IMG/VR virus record: IMGVR_UViG_3300021962_000782
Coordinates: 1 to 20,882 of that record
DNA length: 20,882 bases
DNA from: a virus
Direction: 5' to 3' (one strand)
The position numbers and the translations under genes were made by a program. This document shows, in pieces, positions 1 through 6,615 of the stretch. The notes beneath the pieces are model-generated. The model was not told where the DNA came from and searched no databases. It worked only from the letters and a program-made list of their open reading frames with translations. Within the stretch, counting starts at the first letter, position 1. Each line of letters opens with the position of its first letter.

Positions 1-165
1 CTTGCCCTTGCCGTAGCCGGAGCCGTAGCCGTAGCCGTAGCCGTAGCCGTAGCCGTCGCCGTCGTTGTAGCCGTTGCCGTAGCCGTCGCCGTTGCCGTCG
101 CCGTAGCCGTCGCCGTAGCCGTAGCCGTCGCCGTTGCCGTCGTCTGTTTGTCTTAACAAGTACAC
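1..165 (-). CDS. Gly-rich (G-Y/D/N) hexanucleotide-repeat protein, partial
   Basis: On the minus strand an open frame of 55 codons runs off the left edge without a stop. After about eight ordinary residues (MYLLRQTD if the GTG at 163-165 starts it) nearly every second residue is glycine, alternating with Tyr, Asp or Asn. The DNA is an imperfect hexamer repeat of GGCTAC/GGCGAC/GGCAAC units. The start is uncertain: a G-rich stretch (GGGGG) lies about 6 nt before the GTG, and the palindrome at 178-195 lies just upstream, as it does before other leftward genes. An ATG at about 171 is out of frame and gives only five codons. I do not know a function. Low-complexity Gly-Tyr-Asp repeats suggest a disordered protein, but the repeat could also be non-coding. 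It would be the last gene of the leftward operon seen here. Confidence 0.45.
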   Translation of the reverse strand, partial: MYLLRQTDDGNGDGYGYGDGYGDGNGDGYGNGYNDGDGYGYGYGYGYGSGYGKGK

Positions 166-177
166 GCCATACCCCCG

Positions 178-195
178 TTTTCTTAGCTAAGAAAA
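178..195. repeat. 18-bp palindrome TTTTCTTAGCTAAGAAAA, copy 1
   Basis: Exact copy. It overlaps the stop codon (TAA) of the metallopeptidase/VWA gene, so that protein ends in Phe-Leu-Ser. It also precedes the Gly-rich repeat ORF that follows on the minus strand. Confidence 0.9.
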
Positions 196-1349
196 ACAGT
201 TTTACCACAATCAGCCATAGGCTTACGAGGATTACACACTACCCACAGGATAGGCGCGGGCCAGTCTTTACCCCAGCTAGGCACCTCACCGTCAGTCAAC
301 ATGATGCCGACATCCGGCTTTATATTATGTTCGTGCAAATACGCAGACACACACGACGGGTCAGTACCCCCGCCACCTTTGGGTTTCGTTTGGGTAAACA
401 CCGCATCATACGAACCCGAACCATACTGCTCATGTCCAGCAACCGCAGTGTCCCAATACATAATATGCAGGACTTCCGGGTTTACCATGTTGCATATACC
501 GACCACTTCACTCAAAAACTTGTTCAGGTCATCGCCACCTATCGAACCGGATGTATCTACTCCACATACGATATTACCAACAGTCTCGCCCGTCAGTGTA
601 GGCATGGATATGTCCATAGATAGATAACGCTTGTTTAGCCTACGCCAAGATGATGTTGTCTTATCCGCGCAAATAGATGACACAAACTCACGCAACGCAT
701 CACGCCAATCTATTTGTGGATTGAGTAAATCCTCCAACTCACGGGACATACCACCCGCGTTCTTACCTACCAGCTTTTCCTGAGCAAGCTTACCCTGCCT
801 CAATGCAGACTCCAGTTCTTTCTGGATTACCGCCTGTTCTTCCGGTGTCAATTTGTCTGCCGCTTTCCAGTCATGCTCATCGAAACCACCACCGCCGCTT
901 GGTTTGCCGTTCTTTTTCAGCATGTCATAAACTTGTTTCGTGGTCATGTTGGCATATTGTGAGTCATACAACCCACCAGCAGGCATGGATATGGTTTCCT
1001 TGTTAGGGTCGCTATGTACCAACTCGTAGTTGATAACATAGTCCATTGCCATATTCGCCAGCATCGCGTTTTCTTTGGCTAATGCTTTCCATACAAACAA
1101 GTGACGGTACGCCTTGTGCAAAGTCTCGTGCATCACGAGAAACGCCAGTTCTTGATTGGTCATACCAGCCACAAACTTGCGACCGTAGTAATCATTGATA
1201 CCATCCGTACACGCTGTTGGTATATCGTCGGATATGTAGGTATCGCCCATCATCAGCACACCGGAATACAGCGAGAATTTTGGGTGTGACATCAATGACA
1301 TCTTTGCCGCTTGCAATCGGCGTGTTTCTTTGTCTTTTGGTACAGCCAT
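183..1349 (-). CDS. DUF2201-type putative metallopeptidase with C-terminal VWA domain
   Basis: This 388-aa protein has two domains. The N-terminal part carries H-E-T-L-H at residues 74-78 with a further His at 83 (HExxHxxxxH), followed by A-M-D-Y-V-I-N at 101-107. This is the pattern of DUF2201-like putative metallopeptidases. A linker with N-P-Q-I-D-W-R (210-216) leads to a VWA-like domain. There the MIDAS motif D-T-S-G-S is at 265-269, a conserved T-D pair is at 329-330 and T-D-G-E is at 352-355. Metal-binding and catalytic residues look intact. The start is supported by AAAGGAG upstream of ATG at 1349. It is downstream of a MoxR-like ATPase and a 285-aa gene on the same strand, the familiar MoxR-VWA pairing (for example RavA-ViaA) in which the AAA+ ATPase remodels a target recognised by the VWA protein. 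Its substrate in this phage is unknown. Family assignment is confident; proteolytic activity is inference. Confidence 0.85.
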   Translation of the reverse strand: MAVPKDKETRRLQAAKMSLMSHPKFSLYSGVLMMGDTYISDDIPTACTDGINDYYGRKFVAGMTNQELAFLVMHETLHKAYRHLFVWKALAKENAMLANMAMDYVINYELVHSDPNKETISMPAGGLYDSQYANMTTKQVYDMLKKNGKPSGGGGFDEHDWKAADKLTPEEQAVIQKELESALRQGKLAQEKLVGKNAGGMSRELEDLLNPQIDWRDALREFVSSICADKTTSSWRRLNKRYLSMDISMPTLTGETVGNIVCGVDTSGSIGGDDLNKFLSEVVGICNMVNPEVLHIMYWDTAVAGHEQYGSGSYDAVFTQTKPKGGGGTDPSCVSAYLHEHNIKPDVGIMLTDGEVPSWGKDWPAPILWVVCNPRKPMADCGKTVFLS

Positions 1350-1375
1350 GATTGTGTCTCCTTTGTTTTATATTA

Positions 1376-2233
1376 TTACCACTCGTACTTGCTCAGTATT
1401 TCATCAAGGTTACGCTTCATATCCTGTCGTGTGGACGGGTGTTCCTTTATGTGCTCGATATGCACACCGCGCAATGACGCTTCCAAATCCTTACGTGCCT
1501 GTTCAAGTGCAGGGTCTTTGGTTACGTTCAAGTGCGCTAACAAGTCGCACAGGTCTTGTGCATTGGTAAGGAACGTCTCGTGCCACCGCTTTTTCTTGCT
1601 CTCGTCCGTATCCTTGTCATCCAGTTTCCCAGCCATGTACTGTAACATGTTATGCAGTCTATCCCACGAATCACGCATGGCCTCGGACACTCTGGTATTA
1701 AACGCTTTGTCATACTGTTCACGCAGGTCATCAAGGTCTTGCGTGTTGGCGTCCAGTCTGAAGTCTCCACTCGCAGGTAACGGACTGAACACATAGTTAA
1801 ATGCAAACTTATTATGTATCTCGCTGACATCCGGGTAGTCGTCAGGGTTAAACAAGTCACCCAGATAGTTGTGCGCGGTCTGCATCAATGCCGGATACGC
1901 AGTGAAAAACTCCTCGACCATTCTGTGAAACGTATCCTCACGCCCCCGTATCTCACGCTTGTAGTCGATAAACATACTGGTAGGTATCAACCGCGCACCC
2001 TTATCTGACCACGGTAACGTCCGGGCAATGTGCCACTGCCGACAACTCGATGCGAAATCAAATATCTCTTTGCGCTTGTTCGTTCCAGCGAACAGATTCT
2101 TGTGTACTTTCGCCGCACCGTGTGCCGCTTGATTCTGGTTAAGTACATCCGCTGTCGCTGCCTTGTCCAGCTTGTTTGCAGTCCAGACGGATATGTTCAA
2201 CTCAACTAATAACGCGCTGTTTGAAATGCTCAT
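1376..2233 (-). CDS. Conserved-looking hypothetical protein between MoxR and VWA genes
   Basis: A 285-aa soluble protein without signal peptide or membrane segment. It is largely helical by composition, with charged stretches (for example around residues 195-235) that could form coiled coils. I do not recognise a domain with certainty; a DUF3150-like protein is a possibility by genomic context only. ATG at 2233 has an AGGAG ribosome binding site, and palindrome copy 2 lies immediately upstream of that site. It sits between the MoxR-like ATPase and the metallopeptidase/VWA gene with short gaps on both sides, so the three are probably cotranscribed. A role as adaptor or substrate-binding partner of the ATPase is plausible but is only inferred from position. 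Confidence 0.8.
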   Translation of the reverse strand: MSISNSALLVELNISVWTANKLDKAATADVLNQNQAAHGAAKVHKNLFAGTNKRKEIFDFASSCRQWHIARTLPWSDKGARLIPTSMFIDYKREIRGREDTFHRMVEEFFTAYPALMQTAHNYLGDLFNPDDYPDVSEIHNKFAFNYVFSPLPASGDFRLDANTQDLDDLREQYDKAFNTRVSEAMRDSWDRLHNMLQYMAGKLDDKDTDESKKKRWHETFLTNAQDLCDLLAHLNVTKDPALEQARKDLEASLRGVHIEHIKEHPSTRQDMKRNLDEILSKYEW

Positions 2234-2246
2234 TGTGTTTCTCCTG

Positions 2247-2264
2247 TTTTCTTAGCTAAGAAAA
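2247..2264. repeat. 18-bp palindrome TTTTCTTAGCTAAGAAAA, copy 2
   Basis: Exact copy in the 37-bp gap between the MoxR-like ATPase stop and the 285-aa gene start. On the minus strand it is followed immediately by CAGGAG and the ATG, so it abuts the ribosome binding site. No promoter is visible in this gap. Confidence 0.9.
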
Positions 2265-2270
2265 TGATTG

Positions 2271-3341
2271 CTAGATTAAATACTCGTACTCGTGTACCCA
2301 CTTGGTAAATCTCGCAGACGAAAATGCGATTGCCTGTTTGTTGGGTGTTTTCGCCAGCGACAATGCAAAGCACGCCTGCCACTCAGGTTGCAGCCGTTCC
2401 AGATATTCCATGAACGGGTCAAGTGTATCTTTGGTTATTTTCTGGATAGCACCGAACGCCATTACCGAACACGCTGCCGCAGACTTGGGTAACCGCGCAC
2501 CTTTCGGGTCTTTCACAATATCCTTGAATGGCACAAGCTGGTCGTGATACTCAATGAATGCTTGCATATCCCGCGCTGCCGCTTCACCGATAGCACCTGC
2601 CAAAGCTGCCATAACAGAGTGAGAGTCAAGCATATCGCGTCCATGCAGCACATTCGATGCCAACACCAGCGACCGTGGCGTAACACAGGCTTTCTGTACC
2701 TTTTTAGGATTGTAGCAATACGGGTTATCCTCATTGCCCTCGTCCAGATACGACGCCATACAGTGTGGATACTGGTCTACCCACGCCAGCACTACTTCAT
2801 GCACGCCCCGATTGACGGCCCAGCGTAGCCACTGTTCTGCACTAGGGTTATCAATGTGCAACTCGATGATGCGGTTGCGGCTGTGTGCTTTCAGGTTGTC
2901 ACCTACCCCGTCCGATGTCAGGTTGCCAGTCATTACAATGATGGAACCTTTCGGTACAGGAACATCACCCAGCCGTGGATTACTTTGTTCAATCAGTGGA
3001 TGCAGCATGTTTTTCACAGGGTCTACGCCCTTTGTATATTCATCAAGGAATATGACGACCGGTTTCCCCTCGTGTAGTTTGAACCGGCTATTTGGCAGGT
3101 ACTCGGTCACCCGCTTCTCGCGGTTCGGGAATGGTATCCCTATGTCGCCCAAATCCATGTTAGGTACGTCTACATATACTTTTTCGTACCCTGTTTGCTC
3201 GCTGATGTATTCAATCAGGGAAGTCTTGCCTATACCCGGTGCGCCACGTAGTAAGTACACGTTTTGCGGTGTGGCCATGATAATTTTGGCAGCTTGTTCT
3301 AAGGTTACACGGGTGTTGAATTGTATTTTGTCAGTACTCAT
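2271..3341 (-). CDS. MoxR-like AAA+ ATPase
   Basis: A 356-aa AAA+ protein. Walker A is G-A-P-G-I-G-K-T at residues 33-40, Walker B is V-V-I-F-L-D-E at 95-101, the sensor-1 region is I-I-V-M-T-G-N ending at 140, and candidate arginine-finger residues lie at S-R-N-R (154-157). D-L-G-D-I-G-I-P at 63-70 matches the segment after the first strand in MoxR/CobS-type ATPases. All nucleotide-binding residues appear present. It has an AGGAG site before the ATG at 3341. MoxR ATPases usually act as chaperones together with a VWA protein encoded next door, and here a VWA protein lies two genes downstream. Such pairs in other systems mature metal-containing enzymes or remodel complexes; the target in this phage is not known. 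Unlike its neighbours, this gene lacks the 18-bp palindrome upstream and instead has a GC hairpin. Confidence 0.9.
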   Translation of the reverse strand: MSTDKIQFNTRVTLEQAAKIIMATPQNVYLLRGAPGIGKTSLIEYISEQTGYEKVYVDVPNMDLGDIGIPFPNREKRVTEYLPNSRFKLHEGKPVVIFLDEYTKGVDPVKNMLHPLIEQSNPRLGDVPVPKGSIIVMTGNLTSDGVGDNLKAHSRNRIIELHIDNPSAEQWLRWAVNRGVHEVVLAWVDQYPHCMASYLDEGNEDNPYCYNPKKVQKACVTPRSLVLASNVLHGRDMLDSHSVMAALAGAIGEAAARDMQAFIEYHDQLVPFKDIVKDPKGARLPKSAAACSVMAFGAIQKITKDTLDPFMEYLERLQPEWQACFALSLAKTPNKQAIAFSSARFTKWVHEYEYLI

Positions 3342-3364
3342 TTTTGTATCTCCTGTTTTATGGA

Positions 3365-3383
3365 GCGGGGGAGTACCCCCCGC
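3365..3383. promoter_or_regulatory. GC-rich hairpin upstream of the MoxR-like gene
   Basis: GCGGGGG and CCCCCGC form a 7-bp stem around a 5-nt loop (AGTAC). It lies between the 87-aa gene stop and the ribosome binding site of the ATPase gene. No U-run follows on either strand, so it is not a typical terminator. It may attenuate transcription or protect or process the mRNA. Confidence 0.5.
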
Positions 3384-3398
3384 CGATTTTGTTTATGA

Positions 3399-3662
3399 TT
3401 ACACTACGCAAGGCAAGAAAAATAACACCTTGTTCTTCGGCACGGACGGGTTGCCACACTTGTCCAGTATGGTTTCCTTTGTCGGGCCTTTCAGGGCAAT
3501 CTGCCCAAGTCCCGCTTCCGTACCCCATACCCGGATGACACTGGCATCATGCAGGCACCACTGGTCACCCGCATCCGTATAGTCTTGGCATATAAATACC
3601 CAGCCAGAATCCACGACTATGATGGTCTTACCGTTTACTACTACTGCGTTTTGCTTACGCAT
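3399..3662 (-). CDS. Small conserved phage protein of unknown function (87 aa)
   Basis: An 87-aa protein with strand-forming, hydrophobic repeats and the segment A-S-V-I-R-V-W-G-T-E-A-G-L-G (residues 40-53). I remember this segment as typical of a small family found in many environmental phages near early genes. No catalytic motif is recognisable and no membrane segment is evident. The ATG at 3662 is preceded by an AGGAG site, then palindrome copy 3, then a consensus promoter about 100 bp upstream. This makes it the first gene of the unit that continues into the MoxR-like ATPase, the 285-aa gene and the VWA gene. Family recall is from memory and unchecked. Confidence 0.75.
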   Translation of the reverse strand: MRKQNAVVVNGKTIIVVDSGWVFICQDYTDAGDQWCLHDASVIRVWGTEAGLGQIALKGPTKETILDKCGNPSVPKNKVLFFLPCVV

Positions 3663-3675
3663 TTTGTTTCTCCTG

Positions 3676-3693
3676 TTTTCTTAGCTAAGAAAA
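3676..3693. repeat. 18-bp palindrome TTTTCTTAGCTAAGAAAA, copy 3
   Basis: Exact copy in the leader of the 87-aa gene. On the minus strand it lies downstream of the promoter at 3738-3766 and directly before the AGGAG ribosome binding site. Confidence 0.9.
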
Positions 3694-3737
3694 CGCTTAT
3701 CACGTTGTTGGACTACCTTTTCTCACTACGAACACCC

Positions 3738-3766
3738 ATTATACCACACTTATTTGTCAGTGTCAA
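3738..3766 (-). promoter_or_regulatory. Consensus sigma-70 promoter (leftward)
   Basis: On the minus strand TTGACA (3761-3766) and TATAAT (3738-3743) are separated by 17 bp, matching consensus in both boxes. The -10 region and most of the spacer are the same as in the promoter at 5121-5149 (23 identical bases, then 5 differences, then 10 identical). It would start transcription near 3731 and express the 87-aa, MoxR-like, 285-aa and VWA genes, with palindrome copy 3 in the leader. Confidence 0.88.
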
Positions 3767-3792
3767 ATCACAACACAAACAAAAACCTACGC

Positions 3793-4734
3793 TCAATACC
3801 TGAACGAACTCTTTTCCAATCCGTTGTAACTGTACGGCACGGGTACGCTTATTTTTCCCCTATAAGTTTTGTACATATAATTACGGAACACCTGTGTCAC
3901 GACCCCTATTTCAATCAAGCCTGTATGGTTATATATGCCCTTTGTTATTTGCAGCATCACTTCCGGGTCAGGTTCTGCCTGTCCCCGTATGGATTGCACA
4001 AGGCTCGCAAGTTCTTTGTTGTTGGTTGCGTACACGTTATACCTGTTATCATCTATGGAATGGCTAGGCATTATCGCTTTTTTCACTGTGTAATTCCGGT
4101 GCTCCCATTTCCGCGTATCGCTGTTATATAAAAAGCCTGTTTGCTCCACGGACACTGCGGTCAGTTTGAATATACCGACGATATAATTGCGTAACGCTTT
4201 GAAGTCTTTGTTCAGCTTCCGTGCTGCGGCCTTGTCTAGTTTCCGCATGTTGGACGGCAACAGCTTTTCCATGCTGGCATCATCCAGTTTATACACTTGT
4301 GTTTGTATGCCCATCGGCACCAGCCTGTAGCTCCTGCTTGGATGTAATGGATAGTATTTCTGCGTTATCTCGTTTGCCTCTTGTGTATGCACCGACACCC
4401 ATACTTTATTATCGTACAAGTAAAAATATATTCCACAACTCCCGACCACCCTGTTTACCACTTTACGTGTGGACTCCGTTACCCAGCCGTGGGCGCATAA
4501 CTCTATGCTGTTGTCTGGATGCACGGTGATAACCGGATTGCGGTTGTAATTTATCTGGTAACTCTCGCCTGACTTCGTTATGGTCACGCCTCGTTCGCGC
4601 CTGTTCGAGCTAAACGGGCGGATTTCCGGGTGGCTGTTCCGTATAGGCTCGATTGTCTTGTAATACTTTTCTGCCTCGCTGTACGTGTTGCCTGCGGACA
4701 GTGAGAATATGTTGTGTGTTTGTTTTGCAAACAT
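3793..4734 (-). CDS. Hypothetical phage protein (313 aa)
   Basis: A 313-aa protein rich in Tyr, Asn and Thr with a likely beta-rich N-terminal half. The stretch N-P-V-I-T-V-H-P-D-N-S followed by H-G-W-V-T-E-S-T-R (about residues 66-90) resembles a motif I recall from hypothetical proteins of environmental phages, where a 'hNTpVvtyhpdgt...GW.T.tT' pattern occurs. No enzyme signature, signal peptide or membrane helix is visible. The ATG at 4734 is preceded by an AGGAG site, and palindrome copy 4 lies just beyond a short TG-rich spacer. The gene lies downstream of the zinc-binding gene and upstream of an independent promoter, so it is probably read from the promoter at 5121-5149. Function unknown. 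Confidence 0.8.
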   Translation of the reverse strand: MFAKQTHNIFSLSAGNTYSEAEKYYKTIEPIRNSHPEIRPFSSNRRERGVTITKSGESYQINYNRNPVITVHPDNSIELCAHGWVTESTRKVVNRVVGSCGIYFYLYDNKVWVSVHTQEANEITQKYYPLHPSRSYRLVPMGIQTQVYKLDDASMEKLLPSNMRKLDKAAARKLNKDFKALRNYIVGIFKLTAVSVEQTGFLYNSDTRKWEHRNYTVKKAIMPSHSIDDNRYNVYATNNKELASLVQSIRGQAEPDPEVMLQITKGIYNHTGLIEIGVVTQVFRNYMYKTYRGKISVPVPYSYNGLEKSSFRY

Positions 4735-4752
4735 TGTGTTTCTCCTGTTGTG

Positions 4753-4770
4753 TTTTCTTAGCTAAGAAAA
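4753..4770. repeat. 18-bp palindrome TTTTCTTAGCTAAGAAAA, copy 4
   Basis: Exact copy between the 83-aa and 313-aa genes. It is upstream of the AGGAG site of the 313-aa gene, separated from it by about 5 nt more than in copies 2 and 3. Confidence 0.9.
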
Positions 4771-4794
4771 TGGTTTACTTGTTTGTTACCCTTG

Positions 4795-5046
4795 TTACCT
4801 ATTCAATCCACCCTTGTTTATCTGCTTGAGCCAGTCCGGGTTGGGTATCACCTCGTACGCCTGCTTATGCAAGGGGGCGATAGTGTGCTTCACCTGTCTG
4901 GCCTCCTGCTCACCACAGTCTAGGCACGTTCTGTACCCCAGATTCCAACGGGCATGTAATACCGTGCCCGTACATTCACCACATAAATAGCGGCTATCCT
5001 CGGTCAAGGCACGTTCCACCAGTATTTGTCGCTTTGTGCGTTTCAT
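4795..5046 (-). CDS. Small C4 zinc-ribbon protein (83 aa)
   Basis: An 83-aa protein with two C-x2-C pairs, C22/C25 and C41/C44, separated by 15 residues. The second pair is in the context T-C-L-D-C-G-E-Q. This should bind one zinc ion, as in TraR/DksA-like or rubredoxin-type knuckles. The downstream segment K-H-T-I-A-P-L-H-K (53-61) belongs to a pattern I associate with a widespread small phage protein of unknown function. The start at 5046 is chosen because AGGAG lies 8 nt upstream; a longer in-frame extension would read through the palindrome and leader. It is the first gene after the consensus promoter at 5121-5149. A DNA- or RNA-polymerase-binding role is possible from size and zinc ribbon but is not shown. 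Confidence 0.82.
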   Translation of the reverse strand: MKRTKRQILVERALTEDSRYLCGECTGTVLHARWNLGYRTCLDCGEQEARQVKHTIAPLHKQAYEVIPNPDWLKQINKGGLNR

Positions 5047-5063
5047 GTTGCTTGCTCCTGTTG

Positions 5064-5081
5064 TTTTCTTATCTAAGAAAA
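5064..5081. repeat. Variant palindrome TTTTCTTATCTAAGAAAA, copy 5
   Basis: One central base differs from the exact motif (TC instead of GC), so both 8-bp arms are intact. It lies in the leader of the zinc-ribbon gene, a few bases upstream of its AGGAG site and downstream of the 5121-5149 promoter. Confidence 0.85.
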
Positions 5082-5120
5082 TGCAGGTAACCTTTACCCG
5101 CAGTCCCACTCTACACACCC

Positions 5121-5149
5121 ATTATACCACACTTATTTACCATTGTCAA
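5121..5149 (-). promoter_or_regulatory. Consensus sigma-70 promoter (leftward)
   Basis: On the minus strand TTGACA (5144-5149) and TATAAT (5121-5126) are 17 bp apart, a perfect match. The sequence is a near-duplicate of the promoter at 3738-3766. It would transcribe the zinc-ribbon gene and the 313-aa gene. The first TGTAAGAAA element starts 11 bp upstream of the -35 box, so a factor bound to the array could touch RNA polymerase here. Confidence 0.88.
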
Positions 5150-5159
5150 ATCATCATAA

Positions 5160-5712
5160 TGTAAGAAAAGGTCGGCAGGGGGTAATGTAAGAAAAATAGG
5201 GGCAGCGGGGTAATGTAAGAAATTGTGATTGTCTAGGAAAAAGGTAATGTAAGAAATTGTGATTGTCTAGGAAAATTAGGGCGAATGCAGGTGTGTAAGA
5301 AAAATTTTTGGACTATTGTAAGATGGTAAGAAAAAAAAATCATTTTCTTACACGGTTTCTTACAATATAGGCAGGTGTATTTTGCAGCCAAAAAATAGGT
5401 GTTTTTTAATGTTGTTGTATTGTATTGTAAGAATGTAAGAAATAAAAAGAAGTATATATCTATTAGGCACTTTAGACAATCTCTAAATATATACTCGTAA
5501 GAAAAGTGCTTAGAAAAAAAACCGCATATACTCTTTTTTTTTTCTTACATTCTTACATTAGCTCTTTTTCCTTTGCAATCATGCAGTTACCACACAAACT
5601 TAAAGTTTACAATAAAGAAATTTTCTTACATTACCGCTTTTTCTTTGTGAATCAACGATTTACATTTTCTTACATTAGGTCGATGTCATTTTTGGCCAAA
5701 ATTTTTCTTACA
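5160..5712. repeat. Iteron-like array of TGTAAGAAA in two orientations
   Basis: Exact TGTAAGAAA starts at 5160, 5186, 5214, 5248, 5294 and 5434. Its exact reverse complement TTTCTTACA starts at 5344, 5356, 5541, 5622, 5666 and 5704. Near-copies lie at 5317, 5325, 5426, 5496 and 5549. The longer form TAATGTAAGAAAA occurs at 5157 and 5183 and inverted at 5621 and 5665. Forward copies dominate the left half and reversed copies the right half. The region is very AT-rich with A and T runs, as in a DNA unwinding element. A replication origin or a multi-site operator fits; neither is proven. Confidence 0.8.
5209..5276 (+). repeat. Two tandem 34-bp direct repeats
   Basis: Units 5209-5242 and 5243-5276 are identical over their first 32 bases. 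Each contains GGTAATGTAAGAAA followed by GTGATTGTCTAGGAAAA. The unit combines the array motif with an ATTGTCTA element, which also occurs inverted as TAGACAAT at 5473 and 6727. Confidence 0.88.
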
Positions 5713-5730
5713 ACCCCCGAAAAATACCTG

Positions 5731-5736
5731 TTGACA
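5731..5736 (+). promoter_or_regulatory. TTGACA box facing right (possible weak promoter)
   Basis: A perfect -35 hexamer on the + strand. The sequence 17 bp downstream is TAATCT, a poor -10 box that lies inside the inverted repeat at 5752-5774. No + strand gene follows before the convergent 179-aa gene, so at most it would make a short non-coding or antisense RNA. Confidence 0.25.
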
Positions 5737-5751
5737 GCCAAAATTTATTAG

Positions 5752-5774
5752 GTTAATCTGCTACGCAGATTAAC
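5752..5774. promoter_or_regulatory. Perfect 10-bp inverted repeat (operator or hairpin)
   Basis: GTTAATCTGC and GCAGATTAAC flank a 3-bp centre (TAC), giving a perfect 23-bp dyad. Its half-sites are unrelated to the TAAGAAAA motif. It may be an operator overlapping a weak rightward promoter, or an RNA stem; no U-tract follows. Confidence 0.6.
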
Positions 5775-5789
5775 TTTCACCCCGGTGCA

Positions 5790-5807
5790 TTTTCTTAGCT
5801 AAGAAAA
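5790..5807. repeat. 18-bp palindrome TTTTCTTAGCTAAGAAAA, copy 6
   Basis: Exact copy, not upstream of a recognisable gene start. On the minus strand its TAA ends a short acidic-Ala reading frame whose last residues are Phe-Leu-Ser, the same ending as the VWA gene at copy 1. Confidence 0.9.
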
Positions 5808-5860
5808 CCGGCTTCCGCTTCGGCCTCGGCTTCGGCATCGGCATCCTCAGTCACTATCAC
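5795..5860 (-). CDS. Possible 21-aa acidic Ala-repeat peptide or gene remnant
   Basis: On the minus strand a frame starting at GTG (5858-5860, or 5852-5854) encodes alternating Asp/Glu and Ala residues (D-A-D-A-E-A-E-A...) and ends Gly-Phe-Leu-Ser at a stop inside palindrome copy 6. The repeat is six imperfect hexamers (GAAGCC/GATGCC) at 5810-5845. No ribosome binding site is evident and an in-frame stop lies just upstream. It could be a remnant of a larger repeat gene. It parallels the hexamer repeat next to palindrome copy 1. Expression is doubtful. Confidence 0.2.
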   Translation of the reverse strand: MIVTEDADAEAEAEAEAGFLS

Positions 5861-5927
5861 GCGGCACTATCATGCCGCTATCATCAAAAAAATTTTGGAA
5901 ACCGGACGGGCCGGGCGAACGATGGAC

Positions 5928-5959
5928 AAAAAAAAGCCCGGACCTGTTACGGTCCGGGC
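5928..5959 (-). terminator. Strong rho-independent terminator of the 179-aa gene
   Basis: On the minus strand GCCCGGACC and GGTCCGGGC form a perfect 9-bp stem with a 6-nt loop, followed by eight T residues. It begins 15 bp past the stop codon of the 179-aa gene and should insulate it from the region to the left. Confidence 0.92.
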
Positions 5960-5974
5960 AAGTGATACTTGGTT

Positions 5975-6514
5975 TTATTCCTTTGGCAAGGCGTCATTTT
6001 CAAGAAGATAATCGAACAACAGGGCAAGTTCTGCGGTTGATTCGATAATCCCAACTTGCGCCGGATTATCCGCAAGGAACGCCACGAACTTATCCCATTT
6101 GGCCGGTTTTTTGGCGCCTCCGTTCGTCGTACCTTTGCACGCCGCCGCGAGCGCGGACAGTGAGATTGTCACGTTGCGCTTGGCCGCCTTGCATTTTGCG
6201 GTCCATTTTCTTATCCGTTCGGCTTTGCTGTGCTCAAGAATGCGCCGTAAATGCGAAGCATCATCTTTTGACAAGTACCGCATCAATCCCTCCCCTTTCC
6301 CCGCTTTTTTGATTTTCGCCATTTCCCGCAAGTCTGCCGGTATCCTGTCAATCAGACAATTTAGCGCGAGCGTTTCCGCCAGCGATTCATATTTGCCCGA
6401 ATGTGTCTCTAATGCTTTCAGGTCAACTTCATTGACACGCGATTCCGGAATGTATTCCAGTGCGCCATTGTTCGCGCCGGTGAGTACGGTTTTAATTTTG
6501 TTTGAGTTTGCCAT
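5975..6514 (-). CDS. Hypothetical basic protein (179 aa), monocistronic
   Basis: A 179-aa protein, mostly helical and rich in Lys, Ala and Leu. A strongly basic middle stretch runs from about residue 84 to 120 (R-R-I-L-E-H-S-K-A-E-R-I-R-K-W and onward). No domain is recognised and there is no signal or membrane segment. ATG at 6514 has AGGAG upstream. The gene is bracketed by its own leftward promoter (6564-6591) and a strong terminator, so it is an isolated unit. Its third positions look more GC-rich than in the AT-rich region beside it. A small DNA-binding or regulatory protein would fit the size, charge and position next to the repeat array, but no helix-turn-helix can be assigned by eye. 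Confidence 0.75.
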   Translation of the reverse strand: MANSNKIKTVLTGANNGALEYIPESRVNEVDLKALETHSGKYESLAETLALNCLIDRIPADLREMAKIKKAGKGEGLMRYLSKDDASHLRRILEHSKAERIRKWTAKCKAAKRNVTISLSALAAACKGTTNGGAKKPAKWDKFVAFLADNPAQVGIIESTAELALLFDYLLENDALPKE

Positions 6515-6563
6515 TTTTGTAGCTCCTGTTGTACGGGGAAACGGGATGTCGCCCCATGTGTTT

Positions 6564-6591
6564 ATAATACACCTGTTTTACACATTGTCAA
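6564..6591 (-). promoter_or_regulatory. Sigma-70 promoter of the 179-aa gene
   Basis: On the minus strand TTGACA (6586-6591) and TATTAT (6564-6569, 5 of 6 bases) are separated by 16 bp. As in the other two leftward promoters, the -35 box is part of GATTTGACA. The 179-aa gene starts 50 bp downstream of the -10 box. Confidence 0.75.
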
Positions 6592-6597
6592 ATCTGG

Positions 6598-6615
6598 TTT
6601 TATTAGATAAGAAAA
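6598..6615. repeat. Degenerate palindrome TTTTATTAGATAAGAAAA, copy 7
   Basis: Two bases differ from the exact 18-bp motif. It lies 6 bp upstream of the -35 box of the 6564-6591 promoter instead of next to a ribosome binding site. Confidence 0.6.

Follow-up and report, generated by a model that had tools for sequence, protein, structure and literature searches.

Phage-specific palindromes dispersed through an early gene block as putative operator sites of a dimeric regulator

What is the function of a perfect 18-letter palindrome, TTTTCTTAGCTAAGAAAA, that recurs through the leftward early genes of a viral contig? The palindrome is found in IMG/VR virus record IMGVR_UViG_3300021962_000782, whose 20,882 bases were analysed in full and are referred to here as the window; the window is a fragment, since its relatives measure 60-66 kb. 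Five exact and two near copies are present, all within the leftward early block at 1-6615, where the chance expectation is 0.05 for up to three mismatches and seven copies were reached in none of 100 shuffles. A first-pass annotation made from the letters alone had placed exact copies at 178, 2247, 3676, 4753 and 5790 and near copies at 5064 and 6598. All were re-found at these positions, the near copies with one mismatch (TTTTCTTATCTAAGAAAA) and two mismatches (TTTTATTAGATAAGAAAA), respectively, and in both of the latter the changes fall in a single arm or in the centre. Its further statements that the rightward side is free of copies (none right of 6615 at three or fewer mismatches in the whole window) and that the copies at 2247, 3676, 4753 and 5064 stand directly 5' of AGGAG and an ATG were borne out; on the minus strand the AGGAG is part of CAGGAG or ACAGGAG. 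The protein that would bind the palindromes is called the reader, and its candidate gene in the window lies at 5975-6514.

178-195, no strand: palindrome copy 1, exact; includes the stop codon of the gene at 183-1349
2247-2264, no strand: palindrome copy 2, exact; between the AAA stop codon and the Shine-Dalgarno sequence of the gene at 1376-2233
3676-3693, no strand: palindrome copy 3, exact; in the 5' untranslated region (5'UTR) of the gene at 3399-3662
4753-4770, no strand: palindrome copy 4, exact; upstream of the gene at 3793-4734
5064-5081, no strand: palindrome copy 5, one mismatch, central; in the 5'UTR of the zinc-ribbon gene at 4795-5046
5790-5807, no strand: palindrome copy 6, exact; on the downstream side of both reader candidate and terminator, bordering a half-site array
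6598-6615, no strand: palindrome copy 7, two mismatches; adjoins the -35 box of the reader candidate's promoter on its upstream side

As judged from sequence, these palindromes are probably double-stranded DNA sites of a phage-encoded dimeric protein, one that is most likely encoded by the block's first gene and would repress or meter the early operon. The window 18-mer is one version of a widespread, putative palindrome control system; over 100 viral contigs, each sequenced independently, show the pattern, as does a deposited Planktothrix phage genome.

The collections searched were IMG/VR, a phage collection and a set with one genome per bacterial species. IMG/VR relatives, fetched by way of the AAA ATPase (53-60% identity), TerL (75-82%) and a 285-amino acid protein (51-60%), were screened by a blind scan for recurring palindromes, and their loci are designated by L-numbers. 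Most relatives have 5-22 copies of one palindrome that is private to that phage; in the third set of loci, which partly overlaps the earlier sets, 75 of 81 had a recurring palindrome. The commonest types are CTAACA-1-TGTTAG (A1) and CTAACA-2-TGTTAG (A2); others are TCTGACA-2-TGTCAGA (B2), CTAAC-3-GTTAG (C3), TTGTGAC-3-GTCACAA, CTCAC-4-GTGAG, CCTGATACGTATCAGG, CGTGGTATACCACG and CGTGGCACGTGCCACG, and TCTGACAnnTGTCAGA and GGTTCAGnCTGAACC also recur. L260 and L264, loci centred on the same gene, have sites at nearly the same positions with a symmetric change, CGTGGTATACCACG versus CGTGGCACGTGCCACG. The A1 pattern was present in 11 of 12 records and a control pattern gave no hits. In the annotated Planktothrix phage Pag-Yong1, GTTCAnnnTGAAC occurs 25 times, the copies in the early genes often lying ~22 nt before the ATG. 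The first-pass annotation had suggested a search of relatives for the 18-mer itself: the exact motif was not found in the close relatives, and what is conserved there is the layout, with other palindromes. Eight IMG/VR contigs contain the exact 18-mer, at one place each and with no evident layout, and were taken as chance occurrences; a scan with TTCTTANNTAAGAACAGGAG gave a single copy in a single contig, within apparent coding sequence.

The sites are confined to one 9-13 kb block in the 60-66 kb genomes. A site is found at the start of the AAA gene in 54 of 62 cases (median position -32, upstream of the Shine-Dalgarno sequence), of TerL in 0 of 44 and of TerS in 2 of 47, and an equivalent of the copy at 2247 occupies the same place in some relatives. 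The VWA start codon is overlapped by a palindrome in 52 of 65 relatives (e.g. L063:7680, L040:11760), a translation start and a putative binding site in one sequence. Many loci have their last site immediately ahead of a terminator, of the next TTGACA promoter or of both. Many copies in the relatives are inside coding sequence and others hold a stop or start codon; the fraction inside genes is approximate because site placement used simple open reading frame (ORF) calls. No comparable repeated palindrome was found in HTVC023P, HTVC027P, 023Pt_psg01 or DSL-LC04, and the AAA/VWA pair is not in their listed annotations (first 50 kb). The AAA search against one genome per bacterial species gave one distant match only. 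Three deposited genomes (OL906435, OQ594354 and PP438419) are each 65,014 bp long with the same TerL match and bear three cyanobacterial host names, Planktothrix, Synechococcus and Planktothricoides; they are probably one genome, and the host labels call for caution.

The symmetry of tolerated changes was examined in 504 exact and 178 one-mismatch copies, together with 65 double-mismatch copies. One-mismatch copies are mostly changed at the outer base of a single arm, C>A (45) and the mirror change G>T (55) among the 178; the core TAAC/GTTA hardly varies (8 of the 178 altered); and wobble-type changes (7) show no excess over their mirror type (6). One-arm, mirror-symmetric and wobble-indifferent changes are the mark of a DNA site bound by a dimer, whose two subunits would each read a half-site, and this tolerance supports, as a putative assignment, the operator for a dimeric regulator that had been among the options first listed. 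Unpaired mutations in the arms, which the first-pass annotation had named among the grounds for refuting the feature, are what is found; they rule out pairing as RNA but do not remove the feature.

Divergence between the viruses alters their palindrome copies in concert. L060 (A1) and L063 (A2) share 86% DNA identity over 9.3 kb, and of twelve sites compared between them eight, which on inspection lie at gene edges or outside genes, have jointly shifted their spacing from 1 to 2; the remaining four, within genes (3280, 4665, 5047, 7683), have lost the palindrome, as expected because one added base would break the frame. Between L067 (A1) and L076/L059 (B2) both arms are changed at orthologous sites, at one coding site by two synonymous changes (CTA to CTG and GTT to GTC); constraint acts at the DNA level.

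Sister phages of unlike palindrome type have different first genes in the block. Profiles from the A1-class and A2/B2-class first-gene proteins nevertheless lead to a single family of 74 ORFs, a ~170-residue helical protein of no known family, and a palindrome of its own type lies upstream of 63 and downstream of 54 of these ORFs. The family structure model is confident (mean predicted local distance difference test score, pLDDT, of 86) and all-helical, with a helix pair resembling a helix-turn-helix. When palindrome-type changes are counted on gene trees of matched loci, the reader requires 6, the 313-amino acid protein 7, the zinc-ribbon protein 8, AAA and VWA 9 each, TerL 10 and TerS 11; the reader tree fits palindrome type better than the other trees tested, and type is linked to first-gene family. 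For L067, whose reader was not on the first locus fetched, an A1-class protein was predicted and found, and the nearest reader gave the correct type for 16 of 19 held-out loci, including all four that are not A1. The palindromes are most likely read by the product of the first gene; we infer that this protein binds the sites, is a dimer and represses, and that the window orphan is its functional equivalent.

The window, Pag-Yong1, L106, L151, L194 and L203, which have unlike palindromes, contain no recognisable family member, yet an unrelated-looking first gene stands beside the palindromes in the window, Pag-Yong1, L106 and L151; the window gene at 5975-6514 is thus a reader candidate by position only. 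It has no Pfam or PHROG hit, attempts to align it or the Pag-Yong1 candidate to the reader family were negative, and BLAST in the phage collection found no reader. A BrnA-like ribbon-helix-helix protein was also considered as the reader and cannot set the type, because its printed sequences are equal in L067 (CTAACA-1) and L071 (TCTGACA-2). This orphan gene was seen in 35 of the 58 representative relatives, ~6 kb downstream of where AAA begins (e.g. L040:17029-17232, L063:11440-11643).

Several results weigh against a dimeric first-gene product as the reader. Symmetric Watson-Crick changes, as RNA pairing also gives, are present in 14 of the 65 double-mismatch copies; these do not discriminate, because protein-dimer and RNA models both allow them. 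The reader trees have long branches and the margin is modest on some sets (6 versus 7); the errors in the held-out set are three A1 phages whose closest reader, at 41-49% identity, belongs to A2, and a constant guess of A1 would be right for 15 of 19. The reader-family fold has no match in PDB or BFVD (E<=0.001) and its profile none of significance among PDB sequences; given the missing fold match, DNA binding by the family is putative. Finally, the window 179-amino acid protein has no relatives in the collections searched, cannot be aligned with the reader family and gave a useless single-sequence model (pLDDT 44).

The dimeric protein from the first gene would be made early, with sites at its own gene ends, and after early expression it would occupy all sites and repress. 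Bound at promoters it would limit initiation, whereas from sites in 5'UTRs, in intergenic stretches and inside genes it would form a roadblock to elongation; repression of both steps is proposed because the sites of one block occupy all of these positions. The early operon would thereby be metered or shut off, a timed shut-off of early genes being preferred. A lysogenic role is doubtful because neither PF00589 nor PF00239 (integrase, resolvase) was found in ten near-complete 60-66 kb relatives.

The minus-strand block of the window encodes, in order, the 179-amino acid orphan, a zinc-ribbon protein, proteins of 313 and 87 amino acids, a MoxR-like AAA ATPase, the 285-amino acid protein and a DUF2201/VWA protein; the rightward side opens with TerS-like, TerL and portal genes.

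6564-6591, minus strand: sigma70-type promoter of the reader candidate, TTGACA-16-TATTAT, 11/12
5975-6514, minus strand: reader candidate, 179-amino acid orphan protein; first gene of the block, palindromes on both flanks; by position only
5936-5959, minus strand: hairpin like an intrinsic terminator, downstream of the reader candidate
5121-5149, minus strand: consensus sigma70 promoter TTGACA-17-TATAAT, 12/12, upstream of copy 5
4795-5046, minus strand: zinc-ribbon protein, 83 amino acids; conserved in 49 of 58 representative loci
3793-4734, minus strand: 313-amino acid protein, function unassigned; conserved in 50 of 58 loci
3738-3766, minus strand: consensus sigma70 promoter TTGACA-17-TATAAT, 12/12, upstream of copy 3
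2271-3341, minus strand: MoxR-like AAA ATPase, phrog_1297
1376-2233, minus strand: 285-amino acid protein; conserved in 50 of 58 loci; no Pfam hit
183-1349, minus strand: DUF2201 metallopeptidase/VWA-like protein

The block's three top-scoring promoter matches, two of which score 12/12, each adjoin a palindrome copy, and the copies at 5064 and 3676 lie ~35-55 nt downstream of the starts expected from the promoters at 5149-5121 and 3766-3738. The latter two promoters are nearly identical (TTGACA...AAATAAGTGTGGTATAATGGGTGT), as if duplicated. A search for relatives of the window 313-amino acid protein gave none; the 285-amino acid protein resembles DUF3150 by eye; and the phrog_1314 label "HNH endonuclease" at 183-1349 looks like a misannotation of the DUF2201 metallopeptidase/VWA-like protein. 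The copy at 178 is upstream of a GTG-start ORF with DGYG repeats that continues beyond the window edge; ~22 GCCGTA hexamers at 10-140 read, on the minus strand, as a Gly/Asp/Tyr-rich protein that continues past the contig end.

A role in replication, partition or DNA organisation ranks second and is unlikely. Plasmid Rep initiators act on iterons as monomers and on inverted-repeat operators as dimers, and the window has a second set of elements, unmentioned in the first-pass annotation, that could be used in this way, monomers binding the array as origin iterons and dimers the palindromes.

5162-5710, both orientations: half-site array of TTTCTTAC, 14 single copies; noncoding, 67% AT, iteron-like

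The 14 half-sites compare with 0.07 expected in this interval, none occurs elsewhere in the window, and array and palindrome have TTTCTTA in common, a sharing of half-sites like that of Rep/iteron control. The array is noncoding and AT-rich, and in-gene sites in the relatives also suit such a role. Part of the region (5157-5275) is built of short tandem repeats. Unlike the plasmid systems, however, the palindromes are dispersed through an operon, hug gene starts and cease at the operon end; no Rep homologue is recognised, 5975-6514 having no Rep-family hit; and no comparable array stood out among the relatives checked, in which the highest half-site density, 14 per 600 bp in L114, occurs where full palindromes are dense.

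It is less probable again that a regulator of the host rather than of the phage binds the sites, palindrome type following the host. That the window's reader candidate is an orphan would suit such a regulator, but many unlike palindromes occur within one phage group, and where sister phages of 79-86% identity are of different type, the first gene has been swapped as well.

Also among the options first listed, a hairpin in the mRNA that would govern translation or RNase processing is very improbable. The window copies lie just 5' of the Shine-Dalgarno sequence and a 7-bp stem with an AGCU loop is possible; however, the arms change singly without wobble bias, stems can be as weak as -2.9 kcal/mol and those at 2247 and 4753 fold no better than shuffles, copies occur in coding regions of the relatives, and an Rfam search gave no match. 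Still harder to sustain are promoter elements for a special polymerase, such as the hairpin promoters of N4-like phages, which also have AAA and VWA genes: the distance from site to start codon is short and CTAAC-ANT-GTTAG could form a 5-bp stem with a 3-nt loop, but ordinary sigma70 promoters adjoin the sites, the mismatch pattern ignores pairing, and the annotations listed for parts of the cultured TerL relatives include no virion RNA polymerase (full relatives were not profile-searched). Equally improbable is the earlier suggestion of boundaries for recombining gene cassettes, for although sites are often intergenic and frequently include a start or stop codon, orthologous copies keep their place while changing sequence in concert, and copies also occur within genes.

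Among known systems a dispersed operator of the kind favoured here is closest to the stoperators of cluster A mycobacteriophages (L5, TipsytheTRex), where more than 20 near-identical repressor sites lie genome-wide in promoters and short intergenic spaces, the motif diverges with the repressor, a site lies upstream of the repressor gene, and in these temperate phages a monomer on an asymmetric 13-mer oriented with transcription blocks elongation (PMC9283540, PMC6550527). In the present system, too, promoters and short intergenic spaces harbour many near-identical sites, motif and putative repressor diverge jointly, and a site lies upstream of the candidate gene. It differs in that the sites are perfect palindromes with mirror-symmetric tolerance rather than oriented asymmetric 13-bp sites, are restricted to one early block and frequently overlap start codons or fall inside genes; no solved repressor, such as L5 gp71/TipsytheTRex, matches the reader family in sequence, and the window candidate has no family hit; and the ten relatives lack the integrase or resolvase expected of temperate phages. 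The first-pass comparison with the extended start-associated sequences (ESAS) of cluster K mycobacteriophages was apt as to layout only. There, 11-19 repeated elements lie just upstream of the starts of some genes, the start-associated sequence (SAS) being an asymmetric 13-mer, GGGATAGGAGCCC, and the ESAS a 17-bp inverted repeat that is imperfect and has a spacer of 4-13 bp (PMC3203893). The palindromes likewise precede the start codons of a subset of genes; however, other sequence than GGGATAGGAGCCC is found at the window starts, and the palindromes are perfect and compact, with a spacer of 0-4.

The system is apparently undescribed, no account of it having been found in the open-access papers searched. 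If the window assignment is true, relatives of the 179-amino acid protein would carry TTTTCTTA-type palindromes. More tentatively, environmental phages that are widespread and apparently virulent may employ a new protein family with up to ~20 self-specific symmetric sites to control the early operon, the pair being swapped and re-tuned among close relatives to give immunity-like types without lysogeny. Such phages would be natural experiments in which the specificity of a DNA-binding protein shifts together with that of a dozen or more scattered sites. The finding directs attention to a protein family without known relatives, and raises the question of why repressor-like specificity should diversify in phages without integrases.

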